Shown here in pieces: positions 55,838-58,562 of a stretch of 64,000 nucleotides of DNA. Each line of letters begins with the position of its first letter. The first letter of the stretch is position 1. The position numbers and the translations under genes are program-made. The stretch is taken from the NCBI RefSeq assembly GCF_000701465.1, contig NZ_JNIY01000003.1, positions 186,001 to 250,000 on the forward strand. The letters run 5' to 3'. The stretch is from Paraoerskovia marina DSM 21750. Its GTDB lineage: Bacteria; Actinomycetota; Actinomycetes; Actinomycetales; Cellulomonadaceae. The notes under the pieces are model-generated. The model worked only from the letters and a program-made list of their open reading frames with translations, searched no databases and was not told the origin of the DNA.

Positions 55838-56464
55838 CTACCGTCGGACGGCGCGGACCACGGTGTCGTGGATGGTGACGACCTCGCCGTCGGGGTTGGT
55901 CGCCTCTCGCGGCGCGGCGGCCGCCGTCATGATCTCCCACCCGGTGCCCAGGGACTCCGCGACCGCCGCGGGCATGAAGAGCATCTCCGCGATCCGTGGC
56001 CGCTCGAACCCGACCTCGCGGTCGGAGGGGTGGTGGCCCACGATCAGCAACGTCCCGCCCGGTCGCACGGCCGCAGCGAGTCGACGGTGCACGGACCGGA
56101 GCGTCGGAGTCGGCAGGTGCATGAACTGGACGTTGACGAGGTCGTAGGTCTCGGACGGCGACCACTCCAGCAGGTCCACCCGCTCCCACGTCGCACGAGC
56201 CGCGACGTCGGGACCCGCCTGGGCGACGTGCCCCGCGGCCCGGTCCAGCGCGACCTGCGAGAGGTCGACGCCGGTGACCTGCCAGCCTCGCTCGGCGAGC
56301 CAGAGCACGTCCGCGCCCTCCCCACAGCCGACGTCGAGGGCGCGGCCCGGGGCCAGGTCGCCCGCGTGCTCGACGAGGCGCGGGTTGGGACGCCCGCTCC
56401 AGACGGCGGGCGCGGAACGATAGCGCTCGTCCCAGAATTCGGCGTCGTGCGGCGGGTTCTTCAT
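55838..56464 (-). CDS. Class I SAM-dependent methyltransferase
   Basis: A 208-residue methyltransferase: motif I ALDVGCGEGADVLWLAERGWQVTGVDLS, post-I Asp in VDLLEW, motif II YDLVNVQFMHLPTP, RPGGTLLIVGHHP. Similar short proteins methylate small or redox compounds (thiopurine-, tellurite-type, TehB-like); the substrate is unknown. Start ATG 56464 is the first with the typical NPPHDAEFWDERYR beginning. Confidence 0.88.
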   Translation of the reverse strand: MKNPPHDAEFWDERYRSAPAVWSGRPNPRLVEHAGDLAPGRALDVGCGEGADVLWLAERGWQVTGVDLSQVALDRAAGHVAQAGPDVAARATWERVDLLEWSPSETYDLVNVQFMHLPTPTLRSVHRRLAAAVRPGGTLLIVGHHPSDREVGFERPRIAEMLFMPAAVAESLGTGWEIMTAAAAPREATNPDGEVVTIHDTVVRAVRR

Positions 56465-56638
56465 GGCACCAGACTGCACCACGCGGCGAACCGACACCGG
56501 GTGGAGCGGCCGACTGACCACGTTGTCACAAAGTCTCAGCACCGGTTCGTGAGTTGGTGGAATAGATCGGCAGCGTGTAGATGTTGTGTCCGTCGACCGG
56601 GCCACTCCGGTCGTCGACAGACTGAGGGAGCACACCAC

Positions 56639-56710
56639 GTGACCACGTGGAACTTGATCGAACGACGCGCCGTCGACCTTCGCCGGGTCGCCAGCGCGCT
56701 CTGTTGCTGA
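56639..56710 (+). CDS. Cys-Cys leader peptide upstream of the TcyP-like symporter
   Basis: A 23-codon ORF (GTG 56639) ending RRAVDLRRVASALCC, with GAGGGAG eight bases before the start. This matches the small actinobacterial leader peptides of the RRxVDLxRVxSxLC type that precede sulfur and cysteine genes; two terminal cysteine codons make ribosome progress sensitive to Cys-tRNA. It is followed 174 bp later by a cystine/amino-acid symporter. The intervening 56711-56884 contains overlapping alternative hairpins (see findings). Too short for most gene finders. Confidence 0.72.
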   Translation: MTTWNLIERRAVDLRRVASALCC

Positions 56711-56884
56711 CCCCTCGCGCCTGACGCTCCGGGGCCTCCCGAGCCAGCGCCCGCCGTCGCGGCCCTCCGAGACCGCGACCGGCCGCCGTCCACCACGGCA
56801 CTTCCCCCCGTATCCCCACGCACCCGTGGCTGCCGCTCACCCCTGCGGCCGCCGTCCGCTGCGTGTCCGTCGAGAGGTACCTCT

Positions 56885-58351
56885 GTGTCTTCATCCACCA
56901 CCGCACCACCGGCCGAGTCCGCCGTCGAGAAGCCTCGACGCCGGCTGAGGCTCCCCTCGTTCTCCACCCAGATCGTGCTCGGGCTGGTCTTCGGCGTGCT
57001 CCTCGGGTGGCTCGCGCTCTCCATGGGCCCCGCCGCGGACGGCGAGGAGAACTGGCTGACCGTGACGCTCTCCACCATCGGCGGCTCGTTCATCACGCTG
57101 CTGAAGGCGATCGTCCCGCCGCTGGTCTTCACCGCGATCGTCGCCTCGATCGCCAACCTGCGGAAGGTCACCAACGCCGCACGCCTGGCCGGCCAGACGC
57201 TGCTCTGGTTCGCGATCACCGCGCTGATCTCCGTCGCCGTCGGCATCGGCCTGGGCCTGCTGTTCCAGCCGGGCAACGACTCCTCGCTGTCCACCGACGC
57301 GGCCGCCGAGCCCAGCAGCCAGGGGTCGTGGCTCGACTTCCTCAACGGCCTGATCCCGGGCAACTACCTCGGACTCGACGCCGGGACCTCGCTCGAGACC
57401 GGCGCCGACGGCGTCGTCACCGGTGCCGAGACGTCGATCTCCTTCAACGTCCTCCAGATCGTCGTGATCGCGCTCGTCGTCGGGATCGCCGCACTGAAGT
57501 CCGGCAAGGCGGCCGAGCCGTTCGTCGAGTTCAACCGCTCGGCGCTCGCCGTGATCCAGAAGGTGCTGTGGTGGGTCATCCGCCTCGCACCGCTCGGCAC
57601 CCTCGGCCTGATCGGCCGTGCCATCGCGACCTACGGCTGGGACCTGCTGCAGCCGCTCGCCACGTTCGCCGTCGCGATCTACGTCGGCCTGGCGATCGTC
57701 CTGTTCGTCGTCTACCCGATCGTGCTGCGGTCCAACGGTCTGAAGATCTCGTCGTACTTCAAGGGTGCGTGGCCCGCGATCCAGCTCGCGTTCGTCTCAC
57801 GCTCCTCGATCGGGACGCTGCCCGTCACCGAGCGCGTCGTCGAGCGGAACCTCGGTGTGCCGCGTGAGTACGCGTCGTTCGCCGTGCCGCTCGCCGCGAC
57901 CACCAAGATGGACGGTTGCGCCTCGATCTACCCGGCGATCTCGGCGATCTTCGTCGCGCAGATCTTCGGGATCGACCTCTCGATCACGGACTACATCCTC
58001 ATCGCGTTCGTCTCCGTCGTCGGGTCCGCCGCGACCGCGGGGCTCACCGGCGCGCTCGTGATGCTCACGCTGACGCTCTCCACCCTGGGCCTGCCCCTCG
58101 CGGGCGTCGGCCTCCTGATCGCGATCGACCCGATCCTCGACATGGGCCGCACCGCGGTCAACGTCGCGGGCCAGGCGCTCGTGCCGACCGTCGTCGCGAA
58201 GCGCGAGGGCATCCTCGACCTCGAGCAGTACGACTCGGTCAACACCGAGGACCTGTTCGCCGACGACGAGCCCGAGGTCGAGGGCGAGTCGGACGGTGCG
58301 GACGGCATCGCCGGGACGTCCGAGGACCGGGAGCTCGAGCCGGCGCGCTGA
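56885..58351 (+). CDS. Dicarboxylate/amino acid:cation symporter (TcyP-like)
   Basis: A 488-residue DAACS-family (glutamate-transporter fold) symporter: eight helices with two re-entrant hairpins, marked by IGGSFITLLKAIVPPLVFTAIVASIANL (about 80-110), LAATTKMDGCASIYPAISAIFVAQ, AGLTGALVMLTLTLSTLGLP and DPILDMGRTAVNVAGQ. The family includes L-cystine transporter TcyP and dicarboxylate or glutamate symporters; the Cys-Cys leader upstream argues for cystine. The acidic C-terminal tail (DEPEVEGESDGADG) is unusual in length. GTG start with GAGAGG upstream. Confidence 0.88.
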   Translation: MSSSTTAPPAESAVEKPRRRLRLPSFSTQIVLGLVFGVLLGWLALSMGPAADGEENWLTVTLSTIGGSFITLLKAIVPPLVFTAIVASIANLRKVTNAARLAGQTLLWFAITALISVAVGIGLGLLFQPGNDSSLSTDAAAEPSSQGSWLDFLNGLIPGNYLGLDAGTSLETGADGVVTGAETSISFNVLQIVVIALVVGIAALKSGKAAEPFVEFNRSALAVIQKVLWWVIRLAPLGTLGLIGRAIATYGWDLLQPLATFAVAIYVGLAIVLFVVYPIVLRSNGLKISSYFKGAWPAIQLAFVSRSSIGTLPVTERVVERNLGVPREYASFAVPLAATTKMDGCASIYPAISAIFVAQIFGIDLSITDYILIAFVSVVGSAATAGLTGALVMLTLTLSTLGLPLAGVGLLIAIDPILDMGRTAVNVAGQALVPTVVAKREGILDLEQYDSVNTEDLFADDEPEVEGESDGADGIAGTSEDRELEPAR

Positions 58352-58373
58352 CCTCGGTCTCGACAGGCCCGTC

Positions 58374-58470
58374 CGTCGAGCCTGTCGAGACGCGGGCCTG
58401 TCGTTCCGTTCGTCGAGCCTGTCGAGACGCGGGTCTGTCGTTCCGTCCGTCGAGCCTGTCGAGACGCCAG
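58374..58470. repeat. Intergenic repeat cluster D (37-bp period)
   Basis: CGTCGAGCCTGTCGAGACGC starts at 58374, 58411 and 58448, exact 37-bp period, with TGTCGTTCCGT-like spacers. It directly follows the symporter gene and precedes the inverted repeat at 58484. Confidence 0.9.
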
Positions 58471-58483
58471 CCCTACCTCAACT

Positions 58484-58548
58484 CTGCCGACCACGTGGTT
58501 GTCGACCCCATCTGACTCTGTTGGTGGCCGCAACCACGTGGTCGGCAG
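58484..58548. repeat. 18-bp perfect inverted repeat (CTGCCGACCACGTGGTTG element)
   Basis: CTGCCGACCACGTGGTTG (58484-58501) and its exact reverse complement (58531-58548) enclose 29 bases. Each arm itself contains the palindrome ACCACGTGGT. It resembles the element at 30-76. It could be a terminator, but the arm length and recurrence suggest a mobile or structural intergenic repeat. Confidence 0.75.
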
Positions 58549-58562
58549 TTTTCCCACCGGTG

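Follow-up and report, generated by a model that had tools for sequence, protein, structure and literature searches.

Introduction

Cysteine-rich upstream open reading frames (uORFs) have been described in mycobacteria, where they precede genes of cysteine metabolism (Shell 2015, PMC4633059), and cysteine leaders without terminators have been predicted before cys operons (Seliverstov 2005, PMC1262725). The latter study suggested a role for Rho from polyY motifs, which its authors term not conserved and for which they consider the evidence weak (PMC1262725). In addition, the work on polycysteine uORFs in M. smegmatis is described in PMC9031893, and is cited as translation attenuation in PMC13236596. 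In Rhodobacterales, a different cysteine uORF motif precedes cysS, with mostly UGC codons (PMC8632094).

Here we analyze a uORF upstream of an SDF/DAACS symporter gene, in a stretch of 64,000 nucleotides that is hereafter called the window. Comparison with related loci argues that this uORF is very probably a cysteine-responsive leader of a cystine-type transporter. The leader family itself is already known, and the parts that seem new are its tie to an SDF transporter and the register of its UGU codon. In the literature searched, which leaves most subscription papers outside, we found no report of either.

The leader uORF

The uORF (VTTWNLIERRAVDLRRVASALCC) comprises 23 codons on the forward strand (56639–56710), from the GTG start codon at 56639 to the TGA stop codon at 56708–56710. 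The SD-like sequence GAGGGAG (56624–56630, forward strand), as read from the sequence, ends 8 nt from the GTG, and corresponds to AGGGAG in two congeners and to AGGTTG in the third. Both the ORF and its ribosome site are exactly as the preliminary description gave them. The frame and the start position of the uORF are kept in all three congeners.

The translated uORF scores 32.8 bits against the NCBIfam model NF042934 (“putative leader peptide”), and thus passes the curated cut-off of 27. In the whole-genome profile search with the same model it scores 30.6 bits, and among the five matches listed for its own genome it is the only one over the cut-off. With the models of two mycobacterial leaders, NF042933 (Ms5788A, 28.3 bits) and NF042936 (Ms4527A, 19.1 bits), the uORF remains under the 45-bit cut-offs. 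Because it passes NF042934, retains its frame and start in the three congeners, and has its motif in 45 of 80 orthologous loci, the uORF stands far above chance and, judged by these comparisons, is genuine.

The inverted repeats GTCCGTCGAC / GTCGACAGAC and CGTCGACCGG / CCGGTCGTCG (56588–56622) are located directly 5′ of the uORF SD, and could form a 5′ stem or an operator. The sequence CCACGTGG occurs at the uORF start (56643–56650), and is also the basis of an inverted repeat at 58483–58550, before the next gene on the forward strand. An Rfam search of the window returned no family at the gathering score. Seven stretches before the sulfur-assimilation genes of the host genome were read, and a leader was found in none of them.

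Association of the leader with one transporter subfamily

How general is the pairing of leader and transporter? The preliminary description had proposed a comparison across orthologous loci, and a uORF-type leader was found upstream of the transporter gene in 45 of 80 related loci from public genomes. The leaders were collected with a small seed profile run on both strands, and by reading by eye, and were confirmed by a broader profile with the threshold set to 12 bits. Forty-four of the leader-bearing loci are typed as Actinomycetota, and one has an unresolved record name. The 35 orthologues without a leader include 2 of 15 Cellulomonadaceae, and among the 80 loci the leader was found in 0 of 18 Pseudomonadota (alphaproteobacterial-type) and 0 of 8 Micrococcaceae orthologues.

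Within the SDF family, the association is with one subfamily: 67 of the 102 members of the window's subfamily have the leader, as compared to 0 of 17 other SDF proteins (paralogues). These paralogues come from 27 genomes searched for SDF genes, of which 26 had at least one, with a total of 38 places, all of which were read; the leader precedes 21 of the 21 subfamily genes among them (window included). Since most of the 27 genomes had been picked as holders of such leaders, the contrast with the paralogues is the informative part. By this comparison, the leader is tied to one SDF transporter subfamily. Three Streptomyces-like leader cases (L210, L213, and L215) are absent from the NF042934 matches of the phylum sample described below.

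The conserved peptide block and the UGU codon

To number the leaders, the Asp of V-D-L was taken as position 0. In an alignment of 132 distinct leaders, the block from R−4 to R+3 (RRAVDLRR in the window; codons 56663–56686, forward strand) is strongly conserved, with R−4 in 130, R+3 in 127, and Asp in 131 of the 132 at position 0, where the anchor demanded D or E. This alignment dropped 9 of 161 leaders through pattern misses, while the anchor motif used for the counts at +9, which ignores Cys, took 161 of 161. As the leaders were found by profile and anchored by motif, the conservation of the block arises partly by selection of the sample; the choice among synonymous codons is free of that selection because protein profiles cannot see codons.

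The codon at register +9, UGU in the window (56702–56704, forward strand), is the proposed sensor and pause codon. Among 139 distinct leaders (161 aligned), it is TGT in 129, TGC in 2, stop in 5, GGG in 2, and TGG in 1, so that 129 of the 131 Cys codons are TGT. The same preference appeared in a second set, drawn from part of the order sample (64 places read, 63 distinct), with TGT in 55, TGC in 3, stop in 2, and other codons in 3. Three of these leaders (L255, L256, and L308) share exact DNA with first-set loci and were removed; the remaining 60 fresh loci have TGT in 53, TGC in 3, stop in 1, and other sense codons in 3 (TGT in 53 of 56 Cys codons). Three further peptide windows recur in both sets without shared 150-mers. 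Pooled, with the repeated loci removed, the two samples have UGU in 182 of 187 Cys codons at +9.

Elsewhere, TGC predominates. The Cys codons away from +9 are TGC in 92 cases and TGT in 41 in the first set (TGC in 31 of 38 at position +2), and TGC in 25 and TGT in 2 among the 63 distinct leaders of the second. In the genes behind the leaders, read in frames chosen by GC3, 199 of 213 Cys codons are TGC, as are 46 of 46 in the transporter genes. An earlier codon background (TGC 87%) included some wrong reading frames, and the contrast at +9 is therefore stronger with the GC3-chosen frames. The codons of R−4 and R+3 follow roughly the background usage, while +9 is nearly always TGT; selection thus acts on the peptide at R−4 and R+3, and on the codon at +9. 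The Ser at +6 is encoded by AGY in 81 of 89 leaders. This bias is hard to read because the AGY and TCN codons sit two steps apart, and it may reflect history or an RNA constraint.

The preliminary description had also assigned the uORF to the pattern of actinobacterial cysteine leaders. The assignment holds in that the family is a recognized one (NF042934), but a run of Cys codons is not the rule among its transporter leaders: of these 46 (window included), 35 have one Cys between D0 and the stop, 8 have more, and 3 have none. The second Cys codon of the window's uORF (TGC, 56705–56707, forward strand) is accordingly not general among the transporter leaders. Cys is lacking at +9 in 8 of the 139 leaders, and three of these belong to the transporter group, with no Cys at all after D0.

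Several leaders deviate at +9. A stop codon falls exactly there, with the block kept, in L036, L040, L082, L104, L185, and L305 (L308 is the same locus as L082), while L039 has TGG and L181 and L192 have GGG. A distinct leader class, VHMDLxRYAGCVC, is found in L136–L138 and L147–L152, with TGC at +7 and TGT at +9.

Genes behind the other leaders

The leader family extends well beyond this transporter. NF042934 matches over the cut-off were found in at least 24 of 396 genomes of the phylum sample, with at least 10 matches in one genome, and leaders over the cut-off in at least 38 of 297 genomes of the order sample; in many genomes the searches scored only part of the first-look candidates, which makes these tallies lower bounds. 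One genome (G183) has five leader matches within about 21 kb (C1:1354546-1375350), on both strands, as if several operons were each led.

A downstream gene, sought on the leader's strand, could be called for 114 of 116 survey leaders, although some of the called starts may be wrong; five of the 33 places from one genome search, weak or without a locus, were left out. Among the 25 of 33 Pfam families listed for these 114 genes, the most frequent are rhodanese (21), SDF (18, window's copy included), sulfite reductase (12), luciferase-like monooxygenase (9), cysteine dioxygenase (9), and PALP (8); ThiS, NMT1-like binding proteins, and further families are less frequent. The SDF share is inflated because the survey starts partly from the window's relatives. 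Five sulfur-linked families account for 59 of the 96 non-SDF genes. Consistently, the NCBIfam assignments include sulfurtransferase, sulfite reductase, cysteine synthase, and sulfonate or sulfone monooxygenases. Because sulfur-linked genes follow the same type of leader, we accept a sulfur amino acid as the probable substrate of the transporter.

Probable identity and substrate of the transporter

The gene behind the window's leader (56885–58351, forward strand) encodes a symporter of 488 amino acids, which matches PF00375 with an E-value of 1.3e-99 (334.3 bits, against a gathering score of 27.9) and is the only SDF match found in its own genome. Its description as a DAACS symporter is thereby confirmed. 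The NCBIfam models for GltP and DctA (NF008440 and NF002461) yield 180.6 of 638 and 178.3 of 513 bits, below their cut-offs.

Which SDF protein does it resemble most? In single-sequence BLAST against four E. coli SDF proteins, GltP scores 172, TcyP 155, DctA 125, and SstT 64 bits. With a profile built from 102 members of the subfamily, TcyP leads with 212.9 bits, followed by GltP (191.1), DctA (159.3), and SstT (63.0). In the tree, the subfamily falls on the TcyP/SstT side, apart from DctA and GltP, although the branches are very long, including that of E. coli TcyP.

The segment MDG-C-A..YPA with an extra Cys, which represents a one-residue GC insertion, occurs in 101 of the 101 subfamily proteins counted and in 0 of 17 paralogues, and the solved homologues in the alignment have a gap at the extra-Cys position. 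The GC insertion and the YPA motif are both shared with E. coli TcyP, and both are absent from E. coli GltP, DctA, and SstT. In addition, the [DE]PxxDMGRTAxNV segment is mostly as in TcyP, with the Pro in 98 and the Gly in 96 of 101 proteins. The protein thus resembles E. coli TcyP in its family, the insertion, YPA, and [DE]PxxDMGRTAxNV, while it differs in its overall identity of 31% and in the residues adjoining the insertion (KMDG against GQNG); the signature as a whole (GC insertion, YPA, and [DE]PxxDMGRTA) was compared with one TcyP reference, that of E. coli.

The transporter is therefore likely to be TcyP-like, with a cystine-type substrate. The preliminary description had predicted a TcyP-like cystine importer from the leader, as a substrate that sequence alone would not give. 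The TcyP-like signature and the sulfur genes behind the leaders support the first part, and cystine itself is only likely; the protein carries the signature in its own sequence, contrary to the second.

A less probable reading, although one to be taken seriously, is that the leader responds to cysteine while the transporter carries S-sulfocysteine, cysteate, cysteine sulfinate, or cysteine rather than cystine. E. coli TcyP is annotated as a cystine/sulfocysteine symporter, the arginine of DMGRT is conserved in all 66 members that carry a leader, and the closest homologues of known structure transport aspartate and glutamate. Against this reading, TcyP has both the GC insertion and YPA, which E. 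coli GltP, DctA, and SstT lack, and none of the 17 paralogues has the insertion. Such a substrate would be compatible with the leader and Rho mechanism proposed below.

We also considered whether sulfate auxotrophy would explain the importer. This idea is unsupported, given that the genome has a PAPS-reductase-type gene beside sulfite reductase domains, together with one cysteine synthase that passes the cut-off. The subfamily is widespread, and generic models score its members best as GltP or DctA, under the cut-offs; its tie to cysteine supply therefore provides a testable substrate. Immediately after the transporter gene (58355–58470) are three units like TCGAGCCTGTCGAGACG, perhaps a dispersed repeat.

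The spacer between the uORF and the transporter gene

The untranslated spacer (56711–56871, forward strand) is rich in C and poor in G (C 52%, G 27%), and its C−G excess of 0.25 exceeds the value in every 160-nt window when both strands of the 64 kb are scanned in steps of 20. The same bias recurs in the related loci. In the 44 of 46 transporter loci with long enough stretches for a paired test, the stretch from the uORF to the SD has a median C−G excess of 0.227, while the medians are 0.005 directly 5′ of the uORF and 0.084 within the gene; the spacer has the larger excess in 43 of 44 comparisons with the 5′ side and in all 44 with the gene. Upstream of the gene in 12 GC-rich leaderless orthologues, the median is 0.067. 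When all leaders are considered, the median for the best 78-nt window is 0.244 (n = 138), against 0.051 in 171 control 5′ regions. These controls were taken only from the 80 orthologue loci, and not every leader has a genome-matched one among them.

A simple consensus scan of 56450–56950 found 0 terminator-like sites and no U-tract terminator, and a simple scan around the uORF found no sigma-70 promoter. The excess of C over G fits that expected of a Rho loading site, for which composition is only a proxy. We therefore regard the spacer as the proposed Rho loading region.

Alternatively, a ribosome stalled at the Cys codons might block an RNA structure that otherwise hides the downstream SD, and thereby act at the level of translation. 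Related leaders of M. smegmatis were reportedly explained in this manner, by RBS occlusion and not by Rho, in experiments of Canestrari in 2020. The transporter SD-like sequence, GAGAGG, is at 56872–56877 (forward strand), and in the predicted minimum-energy fold of the spacer taken alone, CCUC (56713–56716), directly behind the stop codon, pairs with GAGG (56874–56877). This pairing is, however, absent from the predicted fold of a longer stretch. Moreover, blocking the start of the spacer in folding predictions raised SD accessibility by 0.035 on average over 32 loci, against 0.060 for other blocked stretches; only 6 of the 32 loci beat all of their own controls, and the accessibility in the window fell from 0.22 to 0.17. 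The 32 loci are those with enough control spacer, from 46 with an assigned start and 35 with an assigned SD. In these folding predictions, SD sequestration by the spacer start thus left no systematic signal over the loci and gained no general support, and we consider RBS occlusion the less probable reading.

The region of the transporter SD has some further features. The perfect palindrome AGAGGTACCTCT (56873–56884) spans most of this SD, several orthologues have, by eye, a CU-rich sequence right after it, and five Nocardioides loci (L047, L048, L050, L057, and L086) seem to have a hairpin just before it, in which the sequence varies and the pairing, also by eye, looks kept.

The preliminary description had instead proposed a classical attenuator with mutually exclusive hairpins (56756–56786, forward strand), in which GTCGCGG (56756–56762) pairs with CCGCGAC (56773–56779), or GCGGCC (56759–56764) with GGCCGC (56781–56786). 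Both pairings exist exactly as written, and the first belongs to the predicted minimum-energy fold. In dinucleotide shuffles of the spacer (2000 each), a 7-bp hairpin with a loop of 3–20 nt arises in 26%, whereas 2.9% contain a mutually exclusive 7-bp/6-bp pair, by a test defined after the pair was seen. The hairpins are thus not convincingly above chance. In favor of some structure, the spacer folds better than most of its shuffles (z = −2.19; 3 of 200 shuffles as low). The three congeners in which the proposed comparison was made do not retain the hairpin sequence, no U-tract terminator was found, and the orthologue spacers are as short as 45 nt (45–64 nt from stop to start in about a quarter of the 44 transporter loci). 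We thus rejected the alternative hairpins as the main mechanism, and control by them is very improbable.

Finally, the idea that the peptide is conserved because it acts in trans as a small protein deserves very little credence. The peptide is strongly conserved and its synonymous codons are free, but a scan that covered both strands placed each of the 45 transporter leaders immediately 5′ of the gene and in its orientation. Beyond +9 the leaders run on for anything between 0 and 24 codons, and a trans-acting product would give no reason for choosing UGU over its synonym at +9.

Proposed mechanism

We propose that the uORF is the cysteine sensor for a single gene, which would encode a symporter of the TcyP type with cystine, or a related sulfur amino acid, as its substrate. 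As the ribosome translates the leader, the chain RRxVDLxRxxSAxC would sit in the exit tunnel. When Cys-tRNA(Cys) is scarce, the ribosome would pause at the UGU codon (+9), and the nascent chain may make this pause stronger or longer. The conserved residues stand at a fixed distance from the +9 codon, the putative pause site.

A ribosome parked at the uORF end would cover the start of the C-rich spacer and keep Rho off, which would allow transcription to reach the transporter gene. When cysteine is ample, the ribosome would leave and the spacer would become bare; Rho could then load, and transcription would stop before the transporter gene.

The complete scheme, in which a paused ribosome shields the Rho loading region and the nascent chain aids the pause, seems to us about evenly balanced between right and wrong. 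Comparison shows that the leader and its peptide are conserved, that it goes with this subfamily and with sulfur genes, that UGU holds a fixed register, and that the spacer has more C than G, whereas the response to cysteine, the effect of the nascent chain, the part of Rho, and the substrate are inferred. The better-than-shuffled folding of the spacer, the 35 leaderless orthologues, and the 8 leaders without Cys at +9 count against it.

A broader idea is offered tentatively, as somewhat more apt to fail than to hold: the cysteine leaders of actinobacteria may be one family of arrest peptides, in which R−4, D0, and R+3 of the chain set a pause nine residues on, and the rare UGU is fixed there since slow wobble decoding by tRNA-Cys lets a single codon sense cysteine. 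If so, the chain, and not a run of Cys codons, would make the attenuator work, and the stop-at-+9 leaders (L036, L040, L082, L104, L185, and L305) would be a variant pausing at termination. The fixed UGU and the conserved chain thus raise the question of whether such leaders are codon-reading attenuators or arrest peptides, which we did not meet in the literature searched.

Comparison with known systems

The uORF shares with NF042934 (cis_reg_atten) its RRxVDLxRxxSAxC block and passes the cut-off. The model names the motif without a target or a mechanism, whereas the target here is a TcyP-like SDF transporter. The mycobacterial profiles of Ms5788A (NF042933) and Ms4527A (NF042936) match over the same block; the uORF is under both cut-offs, and has two Cys codons in place of their longer run. 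In addition, the mycobacterial leaders are described as leaderless (PMC4633059), while the uORF here has an SD.

The leaders predicted by Seliverstov (PMC1262725) likewise have Cys near the stop and no terminator. They precede other targets, and the bias of C over G is established here over 44 loci with paired controls. Cys attenuators do not all prefer UGU, as the cysS motif of Rhodobacterales mostly has UGC (PMC8632094).

In its proposed operation, the leader is reminiscent of E. coli tnaC, which has conserved nascent residues 5′ of a fixed pause codon and an adjoining untranslated spacer for Rho loading (PMC10941005), as is proposed here; leaders with a stop at +9 would come closer still. 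TnaC binds free Trp and arrests at its stop codon under high Trp (PMC10941005), whereas the leader described here would pause at a sense codon under low Cys-tRNA. The parallel is drawn for the possible mode of action, and no membership is claimed.
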